From a virus, in the IMG/VR virus record IMGVR_UViG_3300030099_006646, positions 62,001-126,000 of that record: 64,000 nucleotides of DNA, one strand, 5' to 3'. Every line of letters starts with the position of its first letter. Position 1 is the stretch's first letter. The notes below the pieces were generated by a model. That model made no database searches. It had not been told where the DNA came from and saw nothing but the letters and a program-made list of their open reading frames with translations. Below are positions 2,899-58,690 of the stretch, piece after piece. Position numbers and translations under genes: made by a program.

Positions 2899-3699
2899 AT
2901 GTCTCAAATAGATGGAAATATTCTAGTTCAAGGAAGCACAAGTACTCAATATCAAAGTGATATCTATACACCGCCACCCGTAGTTTATTTAAGAATGAAC
3001 GAAGGATCAGGTACAACAGCCGCAGATTCTTCAAACGCTGGAAATAATCTTGACGGAACTTTAGGAGGAAATGCCTCTTGGACATCTACTAAGTATAAAA
3101 ACGGACCTTATGCCGTAGAATTTGATGGTAACGCCGATTATATTGACTTGGGAACCAGCACCACGCTCAAACCTAATACTGCTATGAGTATATCAGCGTG
3201 GGTATATTCAGAGGATTTTGGTAGTGATTTTAAATATATAATTGCTGCATGGCCAGGACAAGGTGCTGCTTCTAATTATTCTTTTTTCCTTGGTCACGGC
3301 GGCTCAGGCGAGGGGAATGGAAAAATAGGGTGGGGAGTTATGAAGCATCCTGCTGGAGGTACGGGCGTTTGGCTTCAAACTGATGATGTGGTAATCACTT
3401 TAAATCAGTGGCACCACGTTGCAGTAACATATTCTGGTGCAAATAATAGAATGCGTATCTATATCGACGGCGCTTTAAAAGACGCTACTCACTTGAGAAA
3501 TGCTGTTCCCTCACAGATTAGCCAAGGAAGCCATAACGTAGCAATTGGATACAACTATAACGGTTCCCCTTCTTATCCTTATTCTTGGGATGGTGCTATA
3601 GATGAACTTTCAATGTGGGATGTAGAGCTTACAGCGAACCAAGTTTCTTATTTATATGGAAACGGAGTTCCTCCTAATGTTTCTGTTGGAATTCCATAG
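2899..3699 (+). CDS. LamG/concanavalin-A-like lectin domain protein, copy 2
   Basis: 266 residues, the tandem paralogue of the gene just upstream (15-base gap). It shares the N-terminal pattern SDIYxPPPVxYLRMNEG and the C-terminal pattern YGNGVPPxxSVGIP, and the LamG marks YAVEFDGNADYIDLG, WHHVAVTYSG and MRIYIDGALK. The central loops differ in length and sequence, which is what one expects if the binding face is diversifying. The gene has a GGAG ribosome site. It probably binds a surface glycan as a displayed virion protein; the ligand is unknown. Confidence 0.8.
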   Translation: MSQIDGNILVQGSTSTQYQSDIYTPPPVVYLRMNEGSGTTAADSSNAGNNLDGTLGGNASWTSTKYKNGPYAVEFDGNADYIDLGTSTTLKPNTAMSISAWVYSEDFGSDFKYIIAAWPGQGAASNYSFFLGHGGSGEGNGKIGWGVMKHPAGGTGVWLQTDDVVITLNQWHHVAVTYSGANNRMRIYIDGALKDATHLRNAVPSQISQGSHNVAIGYNYNGSPSYPYSWDGAIDELSMWDVELTANQVSYLYGNGVPPNVSVGIP

Positions 3700-3726: not shown

Positions 3727-3744
3727 AGAATACGGAGAGTTTCT

Positions 3745-3963
3745 ATGAAAATCACAAAGACAAGACTAAAAGAAATCATTAAAGAAGAAGTTCAGAAAAT
3801 CCTTGAAGCAAAGCACAAAGACGAAGAGGTCTCTGGTGTTAAAGTTGTTGAGGAAGAAGAAGAACTTGACGAAATGTCTGCGATGTCAACTGGAGCAGTC
3901 GCAACCTCGTCTAAAAAAGAACCTCTCGAAGAAGAAGACGGTTTTTACGAGCCCCACATTTGA
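3745..3963 (+). CDS. Small acidic tagged protein; possible internal head protein
   Basis: 72 residues. The N terminus MKITKTRLKEIIKEEVQ is an amphipathic Lys/Glu helix that recurs at the start of other proteins in this window (56277, 56590, and more loosely 15174, 58718, 63802). It ends at KILE|A, which fits the T4 prohead-protease consensus (L/I)xE|(A/G/S). The rest is very acidic and low in complexity. The TGA at 3961 is followed, in the same frame, by 28 more coding-like codons ending at TAA 4048-4050. The product may therefore be 101 residues by readthrough or in a strain without the stop. Preceded by a CTATTTAT element, so probably late. Function is inferred from the tag only. Confidence 0.6.
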   Translation: MKITKTRLKEIIKEEVQKILEAKHKDEEVSGVKVVEEEEELDEMSAMSTGAVATSSKKEPLEEEDGFYEPHI

Positions 3964-4050
3964 CCCGACGAACTTAAATGGCCAGGTGGGTCAGAAGTCG
4001 TAAAAAAACAAAAAGCTCGCAAAAAAGCCAATCAGAAAAAACCTGAATAA
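3961..4050 (+). other. Candidate UGA readthrough extension of the 3745 gene
   Basis: After the TGA, the same frame continues as PDELKWPGGSEVV and then a very basic Lys/Arg tail to TAA at 4048. With the stop read as Trp the junction would read EPHIWPDELKW, which looks like natural protein. The base after the stop is C, giving the UGAC context known to be leaky. A recent nonsense mutation (TGG to TGA) or a sequencing error are equally possible. Confidence 0.45.
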
Positions 4051-4092: not shown

Positions 4093-7000
4093 ATGAAGAT
4101 TGCACACATTTCTGACATTCACATTCGCAACTATCGCTATCACTATGAATACGAACAGGTCTTTGAGCAACTCTACGCAAAGCTAGAGGAACTAAAGCCT
4201 GATCTTATCGTAAACACAGGCGATACTGCTCATACTAAACTTAACCTTAGCCCGTCTTATTTTGATATGGCGGTTAGAATGTTTGAGAGGCTAGCTGACA
4301 TTGCCCCTTATCATATTATCTTGGGGAACCACGATCTAAACCTTCGTAATCTCTCCAAGATAGATGCCGTTTCCCCCCTTGTTGCGGCATTGGACCACCC
4401 TAACATTCACTTTCACAAATATTCTGCGGAAGTGGACATAGGCAATAACTTTTGTTTTCATGTCCTATCCATTGTAGACGAAGAAAATTGGACACTCCCA
4501 ACAGACATGGATAAAGTACATATCGCTCTTTTTCACGGCTCTGTTGCTGGTGTTCAAACTTCTACTGGCTGGACAATGACTCACGGTGACATTAACTTAG
4601 ATCGCCTTACAGAATACGATTATGCTCTTCTTGGCGATATTCACAAGCCTAATCAACCCTTAGATAAAGAAGGGCGTATTCGCTATGCTGGTTCTCTTGT
4701 GCAACAAAACTTTGGAGAATCAGAAGAAAAAGGATTTCTTCTTTGGGACATTAAAGATGCTGATACTTTTAAAGTAAAACACTACGCATTAGAAAACCCA
4801 AAGCCCTTTGTCACTATCAACCTTACAAAGAAAGGCAAGATACCAGCAAAAGCAAAGATCCCAGAAGGGTGCCGGTTACGTCTTGTAACAGAAGTTAATC
4901 TTCCTATGGACATAATCAAGCGAACGATTGAACTTGCGAAGACAAAGTATAAACCAGAGACAATCAATTTTCATTCTAAAGTTGTCGGCAACAGAAAAGG
5001 AGGAGACGACGCATCTAATACAGTCTTTAAAGACGATTTGCGAAGTGTAGAAGTTCAAGAAGGTCTTATACAAGATTATTTAAAAGACTATGAACTTGAA
5101 GAAGAAACACTGCAACAAATCTTCGCTTTAAACCAGAAGTATAATAAACTCGTTACAGAAGAAGAAGAGGTAAGTCGCAACGTTCACTGGTCTGTGAAGA
5201 GTCTTGAGTGGGACAATCTTTTTAACTATGGAGAAGCAAATACTATTGATTTCAATAATCTAGAAGGAACAGTAGGTATTTTTGGCAAGAATTTTTCTGG
5301 TAAATCTTCTATTGTTGATTCATTCCTTTATACTTTGTTCAACACAACCTCCAAGAATGAAAGGAAAAACCTCAACATTATTAACCAGAATAAAGAAAAC
5401 GGAAGAGGAAGCGTCAGTATTGATATTGGAACTGACACTTATCATGTTGAAAGAACAAGCGAGAAATACGAAAAGAAACTTAAAGGCAACATTACAACAG
5501 AAGCCAAGACAAATATTGAGTTCTACAAGGTAGATAACATTACAGGCGAAGAAACACCTCTTAATGGTGATACAAGAGCGCAAACAGACAAAAACATTCG
5601 TTCTGTCTTTGGTTCAATAGAAGACTTTCTTTTAACTTCTATGGGTTCTCAGTTAGAGTCTCTTGCTTACATTAACGAAGGCTCGACAAAGCGTAAAGAA
5701 ATTCTTGCTAAGTTTCTTGACTTGGAAGTCTTTGAGAAGAAGTTTAAAAAAGCAAAAGACGACGCTGCTGATTTGAGGGTTGCTCTCAAAAAGATGAAGG
5801 ATAGAGATTTTGTAACAGAACTTAAAGAAAAAAGAAAAGAACTTGCTTTAAGCGAAACAAAGATTGATATCAAAAAAAGAGAAAATGAAGACCTTAAAGA
5901 ACTTACATTAGGATTTAGAGAAAACATATTAGCTTTAGAAACAAAGATTAACTCTATACCAGATGAAATAATCGAAATCCAAGAAGTCTTAGAAGAAATA
6001 AAAGAAAAGAAAGAAGAACTTGACAGCATTTCAAACAAAGAAAAAGATTATATGGATGAAATTGCTGAAAAGCTTGAGTTTGTAAAGAAGTTTGAAAACT
6101 TCCAAAAAGTATTTGATATTGATGATGCTTTAAAAAACAAAGAGTTTGGCGAAGATATGATCTCAGAGCTTGATAGTTTTTCAAGAGATATTGAAGTTTT
6201 GGAAATAAAGTTCAACAATCAGTCCAAAAAAGCATCTCTTTTAAATGAAGTCCCTTGTGGTCCAAAATATTCCTCATGCAAGTTTATTAAAGACGCCTAT
6301 AACGCATCTTCTCAACTAGAGAATACCAAGGTGGCTTTAAATGAACTAAAGCTCTCAAAAGGGCAAAAACAAGCCGAATTAGATAACTTAGAACACGATA
6401 AGAATATTGAAAGAATCAACGGATATATAAAGGCAAAAGAGAAAAAGAACAAATATGAAAAACAAGTTAAAGATATTAGATTAGATATTGAACGGAACAA
6501 GATAAAATCCCTACAGATCAATAATGATCTTAATAACTTAATAGAAAAAAGAGAAGAATACGAAGAGAACAAGGATGCTATTGAAAACCTTCAATTTCTT
6601 GTAAAGGAAAAGAAGAAGCTGAAACATATCGTCTCAACAAATGAGATTGCAGTAGAAAAAGCATCAGAAGATCTTCTTGATCTTTACAAAGCAAATGGCT
6701 CTCTAGAACAACAATACAAACAAATTGAACTTGAGCAGAAAGAACATGATACTTTAAACAAGAGCTTTTCAACTTACGACTTGTATATGAAGTGTGTCCA
6801 TTCAAACGGCATTGCATATGACTTAATCAAGCAAAGCCTACCTATTCTTAACCAAGAAATACAAAAGATTTTATCTAATGTGGTTGAGTTTGAGGTTATG
6901 TTTGAGAATGACGACAACAAACTTGACATTTTGATCAAACACCCTAAGTATGAGGCACGACCCATTGAGATGGGCTCAGGCGCAGAGAAGACAATCGCAG

Positions 7001-7245
7001 CAATGGCTATTCGTTTAGCTCTTTTAAATGTTTCTACCTTGCCAAAAGGAGATGTATTTATCCTTGACGAACCAGGAACAGCCCTTGATGAAGAAAATAT
7101 GGAAGGATTTATTCGCATTTTGGATATAATTAAAAGCGAGTTTAAAACAATCTTTCTTATTTCACACTTAGAAGTCTTAAAAGATATTGTAGATAAGCAA
7201 ATAATCATTAACAAAGAAGATGGTTATGCTAAAGTAAACGAATAA
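4093..7245 (+). CDS. SbcD-SbcC (Mre11-Rad50 / gp47-gp46) fusion nuclease-ATPase
   Basis: 1050 residues joining two enzymes that are normally separate. Residues 1-230 are a metallophosphoesterase: HISDIHI, NTGDTAH, LGNHDLN, FHGS and LGDIHKP carry the metal ligands. A linker/capping region runs to about 365. An SbcC/Rad50 ATPase follows: Walker A GKNFSGKS near 398-405, long coiled coil (about 540-870), a ligand-type hinge PCGPKYSSC near 719 where Rad50 would have a CxxC hook, signature region MGSGAEKT, and Walker B VFILDEPG near 985. In T4, gp47 and gp46 (339 and 560 residues) form this complex for recombination-dependent replication and host DNA breakdown. The hook cysteines are six residues apart rather than two. 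Confidence 0.88.
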   Translation: MKIAHISDIHIRNYRYHYEYEQVFEQLYAKLEELKPDLIVNTGDTAHTKLNLSPSYFDMAVRMFERLADIAPYHIILGNHDLNLRNLSKIDAVSPLVAALDHPNIHFHKYSAEVDIGNNFCFHVLSIVDEENWTLPTDMDKVHIALFHGSVAGVQTSTGWTMTHGDINLDRLTEYDYALLGDIHKPNQPLDKEGRIRYAGSLVQQNFGESEEKGFLLWDIKDADTFKVKHYALENPKPFVTINLTKKGKIPAKAKIPEGCRLRLVTEVNLPMDIIKRTIELAKTKYKPETINFHSKVVGNRKGGDDASNTVFKDDLRSVEVQEGLIQDYLKDYELEEETLQQIFALNQKYNKLVTEEEEVSRNVHWSVKSLEWDNLFNYGEANTIDFNNLEGTVGIFGKNFSGKSSIVDSFLYTLFNTTSKNERKNLNIINQNKENGRGSVSIDIGTDTYHVERTSEKYEKKLKGNITTEAKTNIEFYKVDNITGEETPLNGDTRAQTDKNIRSVFGSIEDFLLTSMGSQLESLAYINEGSTKRKEILAKFLDLEVFEKKFKKAKDDAADLRVALKKMKDRDFVTELKEKRKELALSETKIDIKKRENEDLKELTLGFRENILALETKINSIPDEIIEIQEVLEEIKEKKEELDSISNKEKDYMDEIAEKLEFVKKFENFQKVFDIDDALKNKEFGEDMISELDSFSRDIEVLEIKFNNQSKKASLLNEVPCGPKYSSCKFIKDAYNASSQLENTKVALNELKLSKGQKQAELDNLEHDKNIERINGYIKAKEKKNKYEKQVKDIRLDIERNKIKSLQINNDLNNLIEKREEYEENKDAIENLQFLVKEKKKLKHIVSTNEIAVEKASEDLLDLYKANGSLEQQYKQIELEQKEHDTLNKSFSTYDLYMKCVHSNGIAYDLIKQSLPILNQEIQKILSNVVEFEVMFENDDNKLDILIKHPKYEARPIEMGSGAEKTIAAMAIRLALLNVSTLPKGDVFILDEPGTALDEENMEGFIRILDIIKSEFKTIFLISHLEVLKDIVDKQIIINKEDGYAKVNE

Positions 7246-57841: not shown

Positions 57842-58690
57842 ATGAACCTTGTAGGAAACACGCCTCTTGTAAAGTTGGGCGATAAACTTTACGCTAAGTT
57901 CGAAGCATACAACCCATCCGGCTCTATCAAAGACAGGATGGCTGCTTACATTCTCCAAAAAGCCGAAGAGAACGGCGATTTAAGAGAAGGCTATACTATT
58001 GTAGAAGCTTCATCAGGAAACACAGGTATAGCCTTTGCTATGCTCGCAGCAGCCAAAGGATACGGCTGTATTATTGTTATGCCTCGTAACATGAGTGAAG
58101 AGCGCAAGCAAATGATGCGCTCCTTCGGTGCTCGTATTATTGAAGTAGGCGACAATGCTTTTAAAGATGCGATTGAGCAGAGAGATCAACTAGTCCACAA
58201 CTTTGGAACTTATTGGTCTCCACGGCAGTTTAGCAATATTCATAACATTGAATGTCACGAGAAAACCACAGCAGCAGAAATCGCACAAGCCGTTTTGGAT
58301 ATGCCCGCCCGTCTTTCTGCCCTTGTATCAGGAGCAGGCACAGGCGGAACTATTATGGGCTGTCAGCGAAGATTGAGCAAGCTATGGAGTGATGCCCGCT
58401 TTCTGCTTACAACGCCCTTAGAGGACGCAGCAAGCCACGGCATACAAGGCATTAACGATGGCGCAGACTTTTTGGTTGATAAAACTCTTATTGATGAAGA
58501 ACTTGTTGTTTCCACACAAGAAGCAAAAGAAAGAGCTTGTCGTTTAGCAAAAGAAAATGGCTTGCTTGTAGGCATTAGTTCTGGTGCCAATGTGCTCGCA
58601 GCAGAGCGATGGATAGAAAAAAATAACCCCACCGGAGTGGTGGTAACCTTTCTTTGTGACAGAGGAGAAAGGTATTTGAGTTGTATGTAA
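57842..58690 (+). CDS. Cysteine synthase (CysK/CysM-type, PLP-dependent)
   Basis: 282 residues, slightly shorter than CysK (323). The PLP lysine is K30 in NPSGSIKDRMA. EASSGNTGIAFA (from about 56), the phosphate loop SGAGTGGTIMG and GLLVGISSGANV complete the active site. The substrate loop differs: HGIQGINDGADFLV for the usual HKIQGIGAGFIP. It makes cysteine from O-acetylserine (or a like donor) and sulfide. It is a metabolic gene in a phage, with an AAAAGGAA ribosome site. Confidence 0.88.
   Translation: MNLVGNTPLVKLGDKLYAKFEAYNPSGSIKDRMAAYILQKAEENGDLREGYTIVEASSGNTGIAFAMLAAAKGYGCIIVMPRNMSEERKQMMRSFGARIIEVGDNAFKDAIEQRDQLVHNFGTYWSPRQFSNIHNIECHEKTTAAEIAQAVLDMPARLSALVSGAGTGGTIMGCQRRLSKLWSDARFLLTTPLEDAASHGIQGINDGADFLVDKTLIDEELVVSTQEAKERACRLAKENGLLVGISSGANVLAAERWIEKNNPTGVVVTFLCDRGERYLSCM

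Follow-up and report, generated by a model that had tools for sequence, protein, structure and literature searches.

A candidate portable cassette for programmed UGA redefinition, with a basic C-terminal extension, in uncultured phages

We analyzed a 64,000-nucleotide stretch (the window; bases 62001-126000) of the 158,608-base IMG/VR record IMGVR_UViG_3300030099_006646, an uncultured T4-like virus, and focused on a short open reading frame (ORF) that ends at an in-frame UGA at 3961-3963 on the plus strand. A portable cassette for programmed UGA redefinition, which would give the encoded protein a basic C-terminal extension, is the best explanation of the sequence pattern, and we consider it highly probable. 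The ORF before the UGA has 72 codons (3745-3960, plus strand), made up of the N-terminus MKITKTRLKEIIKEEVQKILE, an acidic linker and the residues GFYEPHI. A Shine-Dalgarno-like GGAG lies on the same strand at 3734-3737, 7 nt upstream of its ATG. As a sequence-only reading of the window had stated, no stop interrupts the frame for 28 codons past the TGA, and reading the stop as Trp gives a natural-looking protein. This extension, PDELKWPGGSEVVKKQKARKKANQKKPE, occupies 3964-4047 on the plus strand, has a coding-like substitution pattern and is closed by a TAA at 4048-4050.

The position of the stop codon is conserved across divergent homologs. We searched IMG/VR (2.9 million viral contigs) by protein and by pattern, including three pattern scans in which the UGA codon was left unconstrained, and found six loci beyond the window. 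Together they define a module of the form G[WF][YD]EP(HI/HV/IS)-TGA-PD[ED]L[KD]WPG[GR]SE followed by a basic tail. TGA occupies the stop position at all seven loci (the window and the six), and TGG, TGC or any other codon at none of them, even with the codon-free scans. The seven assemblies that carry it come from at least four sample ids. The sequence-only reading had left the choice between readthrough and a recent nonsense mutation; the constant TGA favors the former, and the lack of any TGG contradicts the latter. The outcome named there as adverse to readthrough, TGG in the homologs or no homologs with the extension, did not occur, and the homologs carry both the TGA and the extension. 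Further matches (L018, L062-L070 and L073-L080) were unrelated on inspection at the match site.

The module occurs in two gene contexts. In the window and in loci L001, L002 and L003, it precedes a fused SbcC/SbcD-like gene (SbcCD). In L015, L071 and L072, it is preceded by a Cys-rich gene and followed by a gene of the RRKSFRARHNC type. In this second context the ORF before the UGA has 13 codons in L071 and L072 (MKD[SN]KQGWYEPHI) and 22 codons in L015, and its start overlaps the 3' end of the Cys-rich gene. The tail there runs stop-free and in frame into the following gene, which ends in RRKSFRARHNC..SCKAW or a close variant. A peptide of 13 residues is unlikely to be the module's purpose. 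The gene upstream of the cassette in L089, L072 and L015 encodes a long modular Cys- and Lys-rich protein and overlaps the start of the cassette ORF.

The UGA and tail of the window are identical to those of L001, yet identity between the SbcCD genes is 83%, and 63 of the 200 third positions in their first 600 nt are changed. With L002 the situation is reversed: several tail sites differ, yet the SbcCD genes are 98.2% identical. From these sequences, the module appears to recombine between phages. The identity of the UGA and tail in the window and L001 suggests either recombination or a strong nucleotide constraint on the cassette.

Protein-level selection on the downstream frame was evident in substitution patterns, in shuffles and in a scan of gene ends. 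In the tail, synonymous differences (pS, 0.24-0.71) exceeded nonsynonymous differences (pN, 0.02-0.28) in every pair that differed. Column shuffling ignores relatedness, and with its P values taken as guides, the protein-conservation score of the tail topped 2000 of 2000 shuffles and the synonymous excess had P=0.0035; for the codons past the hairpin described below, the corresponding values were P<0.0005 and P=0.0045. Among 63 gene ends in four related phage records, this extension was the sole coding-like one without an in-frame start near its beginning, and each of the remaining extensions with clearly low pN/pS continues into the following gene, whose start is in frame with it. No start codon (ATG, GTG or TTG) in frame near the beginning of the tail is common to all loci. 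The tail frame is open at all seven loci, and the other frames are interrupted by stops in most.

RNA-level constraint acts on the codons of a predicted 34-nt hairpin at 3968-4001 (plus strand; nt 8-41 counted from the U of the UGA). Its lower stem pairs 3968-3975 with 3995-4001, its upper stem pairs UGGCC (3979-3983) with GGUCA (3989-3993), and the apical loop AGGUG (3984-3988) is 20 nt from the UGA. The five consecutive codons CCA GGT RGG TCA GAA have invariant third positions across four representative lineages, including the rare GGG and AGG, and most third positions outside these codons vary. All five synonymously fixed codons fall inside the predicted hairpin, and the product of their codon-usage probabilities is about 1e-6, assuming saturation. 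L071, which is outside the four representatives, has TCG at the TCA codon. The structure itself is suggestive. When modeled as a nested hairpin on six aligned sequences, 96% of cells pair and two pairs have changed on both sides. The covariation score was equalled or passed in 33 of 500 shuffles; the upper stem is invariant in this alignment and therefore yields no covariation evidence. An H-type pseudoknot starting at the UGA seemed to be supported by L003, but it is broken in L071 and L072, and the nested hairpin fits better. An Rfam scan gave no match above threshold.

In the mechanism that we propose, ribosomes translating the short ORF would meet the UGA at 3961, and a fraction of them would insert an amino acid instead of terminating. 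Decoding would then run through 28 codons to the TAA at 4048, appending PDELKWPGG..KKQKARKKANQKKPE. Such readthrough would take place in infected cells, where the hairpin, and perhaps also the C after the UGA, may favor it over release by release factor 2. The UGAC context is leaky in E. coli, and the sequence-only reading was right in this general respect; as separate evidence the context falls away, the C being part of a conserved Pro codon. Near-cognate tRNA-Trp can decode UGA, and through it the inserted residue would mostly be Trp, which is plausible from the sequence. If recoding does take place at the UGA, the inserted residue is probably Trp or a different near-cognate one, and selenocysteine is distinctly less probable. 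When the UGA is read as Trp, the MbtH profile PF03621 gives a weak alignment over 24 residues (E 0.006-0.009, below cut-off), and the resemblance is weaker or absent with Cys at this position, which may be taken as a faint hint of Trp. Membership in the MbtH-like family was rejected, the score being 16.5 bits against a cut-off of 27 with about half of the profile absent. UGA terminates 23 of 104 ORFs of at least 150 aa in the source record (G000), indicating the standard code. Genome-wide reassignment is thereby ruled out, UGA being an ordinary stop in this record.

Several points weigh against programmed redefinition. The loci are partly dependent and represent only about four independent lineages (the window with L001 and L002; L071 with L072; L003; L015), and conservation among close relatives overstates the evidence because the cassette may spread by recombination. 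Every cassette locus found is from uncultured phages. The module was found neither in the cultured phages searched nor, by pattern, in bacterial and archaeal species genomes, for which one pattern set was blind to the L071/L072 type and another was able to catch it. The folding energy of the hairpin is not exceptional, as 6-30% of synonymous recodings are as stable, and part of its lower stem is disrupted in L015, L071 and L072. A source of the inserted amino acid was not found, and no suppressor tRNA with a UCA anticodon was found in the records G000-G004 or in the scanned stretches of G007 and G008.

The alternative that survives best is itself a form of recoding, in which the UGA is a selenocysteine codon, the hairpin is a bacterial selenocysteine insertion sequence (bSECIS) for host SelB, and the module would encode a selenopeptide of the phage. 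We regard selenocysteine at the UGA as possible but not favored, and would give this sub-case a minor chance. The bSECIS model calls for a loop of 3-9 nt with a G in its first two positions, an upper stem of 4-16 bp, a distance of 16-37 nt from the UGA and an energy no higher than -7.5 kcal/mol (PMC13188914). The conserved hairpin fits this model at six of the seven loci (the window, L001-L003, L071 and L072), with a 5-nt loop, a stem of 5-6 bp, energies of -9.4 to -10.4 kcal/mol and a distance of 20 nt. The script that gave these values also recovered the E. coli genes fdhF and fdnG, at -14.2 and -13.8 kcal/mol with loops at 18 and 19 nt. As in the cassette, each of those genes has an in-frame UGA with a hairpin downstream whose loop contains a G and lies about 20 nt from that codon, but the hairpin here is weaker. 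The apical stem-loop is near-invariant and the lower stem variable, as in a protein-bound element, the UGA is never substituted, and a 13-codon ORF before the UGA makes a ratio of short to long product unlikely as the purpose. However, the bSECIS criteria are loose, since they are also satisfied by 18 of 112 (16%) TGA codons that act as ordinary stops in these phages and by 10-33% of the synonymous recodings, and the best qualifying element in L015 is another hairpin rather than the conserved one. No Cys-containing homolog was found in the collections searched with the codon-free scans, and there is no redox motif. SelB was not found in seven phage records; all matches to the tRNA-Sec model were under the gathering score and coincide with ordinary Met, Leu, Ser, Arg or Ile tRNAs. 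The host could supply this machinery. A mobile phage cassette of about 36 codons with its own insertion sequence, which would place selenocysteine in putative virion-associated proteins via host SelB, is a doubtful proposition. We know of no earlier phage selenocysteine cassette in tailed phages, and if true this would be the first.

A true stop followed by an RNA or regulatory element, for example one coupling translation to the next gene, is improbable. It would account for the strong constraint on synonymous sites in the hairpin, and the start codon of the next gene marks the end of the tail in L015, L071 and L072. However, the coding signature persists past the hairpin, the tail frame alone is stop-free at every locus while other frames have stops in most, and the amino acids are kept across the two gene contexts. 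Tight coupling is not a general feature, since in the window 42 nt separate the TAA from the start of SbcCD.

It is very improbable that the tail is reached in another way, by frameshifting, stop-hopping or an internal start. The sequence ATT TGA C partly resembles the +1 frameshift site of prfB, but one and the same frame is kept before and after the UGA, and translation in the +1 frame gives products that lack conservation and terminate early in L015. A stop-hop product would lack one or a few residues and is indistinguishable from readthrough by sequence. The tails share no in-frame start codon that could serve an internal start. A recent nonsense mutation or sequencing error in a Trp codon, which the natural look of the frame with Trp might suggest, can practically be dismissed, because all seven assemblies, which represent at least four sample ids, have TGA and none has TGG.

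Programmed readthrough itself is a known kind of mechanism, and RNA viruses offer well-documented cases of conserved stop-codon redefinition. The phage Q-beta has been described as the system where stop-codon readthrough was first found (PMC8310308). Its A1 protein, produced by readthrough of the coat gene UGA, resembles the present case in being a C-terminally extended phage product reached through an in-frame UGA. However, Q-beta is a single-stranded RNA phage with a long extension, whereas the present module belongs to a double-stranded DNA tailed phage, has a tail of 28 codons and a conserved hairpin, and occurs in more than one gene context. The gag-pol of murine leukemia virus likewise combines an in-frame stop with a downstream RNA structure, but there the stop is UAG and the structure a pseudoknot (PMC5009743), whereas here the stop is UGA and the pseudoknot hypothesis failed. 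In the literature searched, with most subscription journals outside its reach, we found no such cassette described in tailed double-stranded DNA phages. A small transferable cassette of this kind could serve either as a signal for readthrough or as a selenoprotein element of the phage. If it makes the stop readable, phage gene callers would truncate such proteins.

The extended product would carry a basic C-terminal helix and associate with the virion or with DNA. AlphaFold, given Trp at the UGA, predicted an N-terminal helix (residues 5-27) and a C-terminal helix (residues 83-97) without a globular fold, at a mean predicted local distance difference test score of 65.5. We have moderate confidence in the tail as a basic helix on the basis of this model. 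The N-terminus MKITK..LKEIIKEE recurs in the source phage at 118277 of G000 (56277 of the window) and at 140538, and is possibly a shared prohead-targeting sequence. In T4, N-terminal sequences direct internal head proteins to the prohead, and by analogy the window protein may be virion-internal. The sequence-only reading had proposed an acidic head protein with a DNA-binding tail. The recurrent N-terminus, the acidic linker and the predicted basic helix lend this indirect support, while no Pfam or PHROGs family convincingly matches the window protein. PDB matches were weak and were set aside. In the looser form MKI(T/S)K..L..II.EE(V), the N-terminus is seen on otherwise different ORFs at 3745, 56277 and 56590 of the window and at 140538 of G000.

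The window encodes a gp23-type major capsid protein and a head maturation protease. It also carries a terminase, whose nearest relatives in culture, at about 44% identity, are from Flavobacterium phages and the Microcystis phage Mel-JY01. The UGA locus is flanked by a LamG-like protein, named by eye, and the SbcCD gene, a single 1050-aa ORF at 4093-7245 with an SbcD-like part fused to an SbcC-like part. Two LamG-like tandem paralogues (2101-2883 and 2899-3699) both have a terminal GNGVPP..SVGIP motif, suggesting duplication. Farther along the window, an ORF at 57842-58690 resembles cysteine synthase by eye and is possibly a host-derived metabolic gene.
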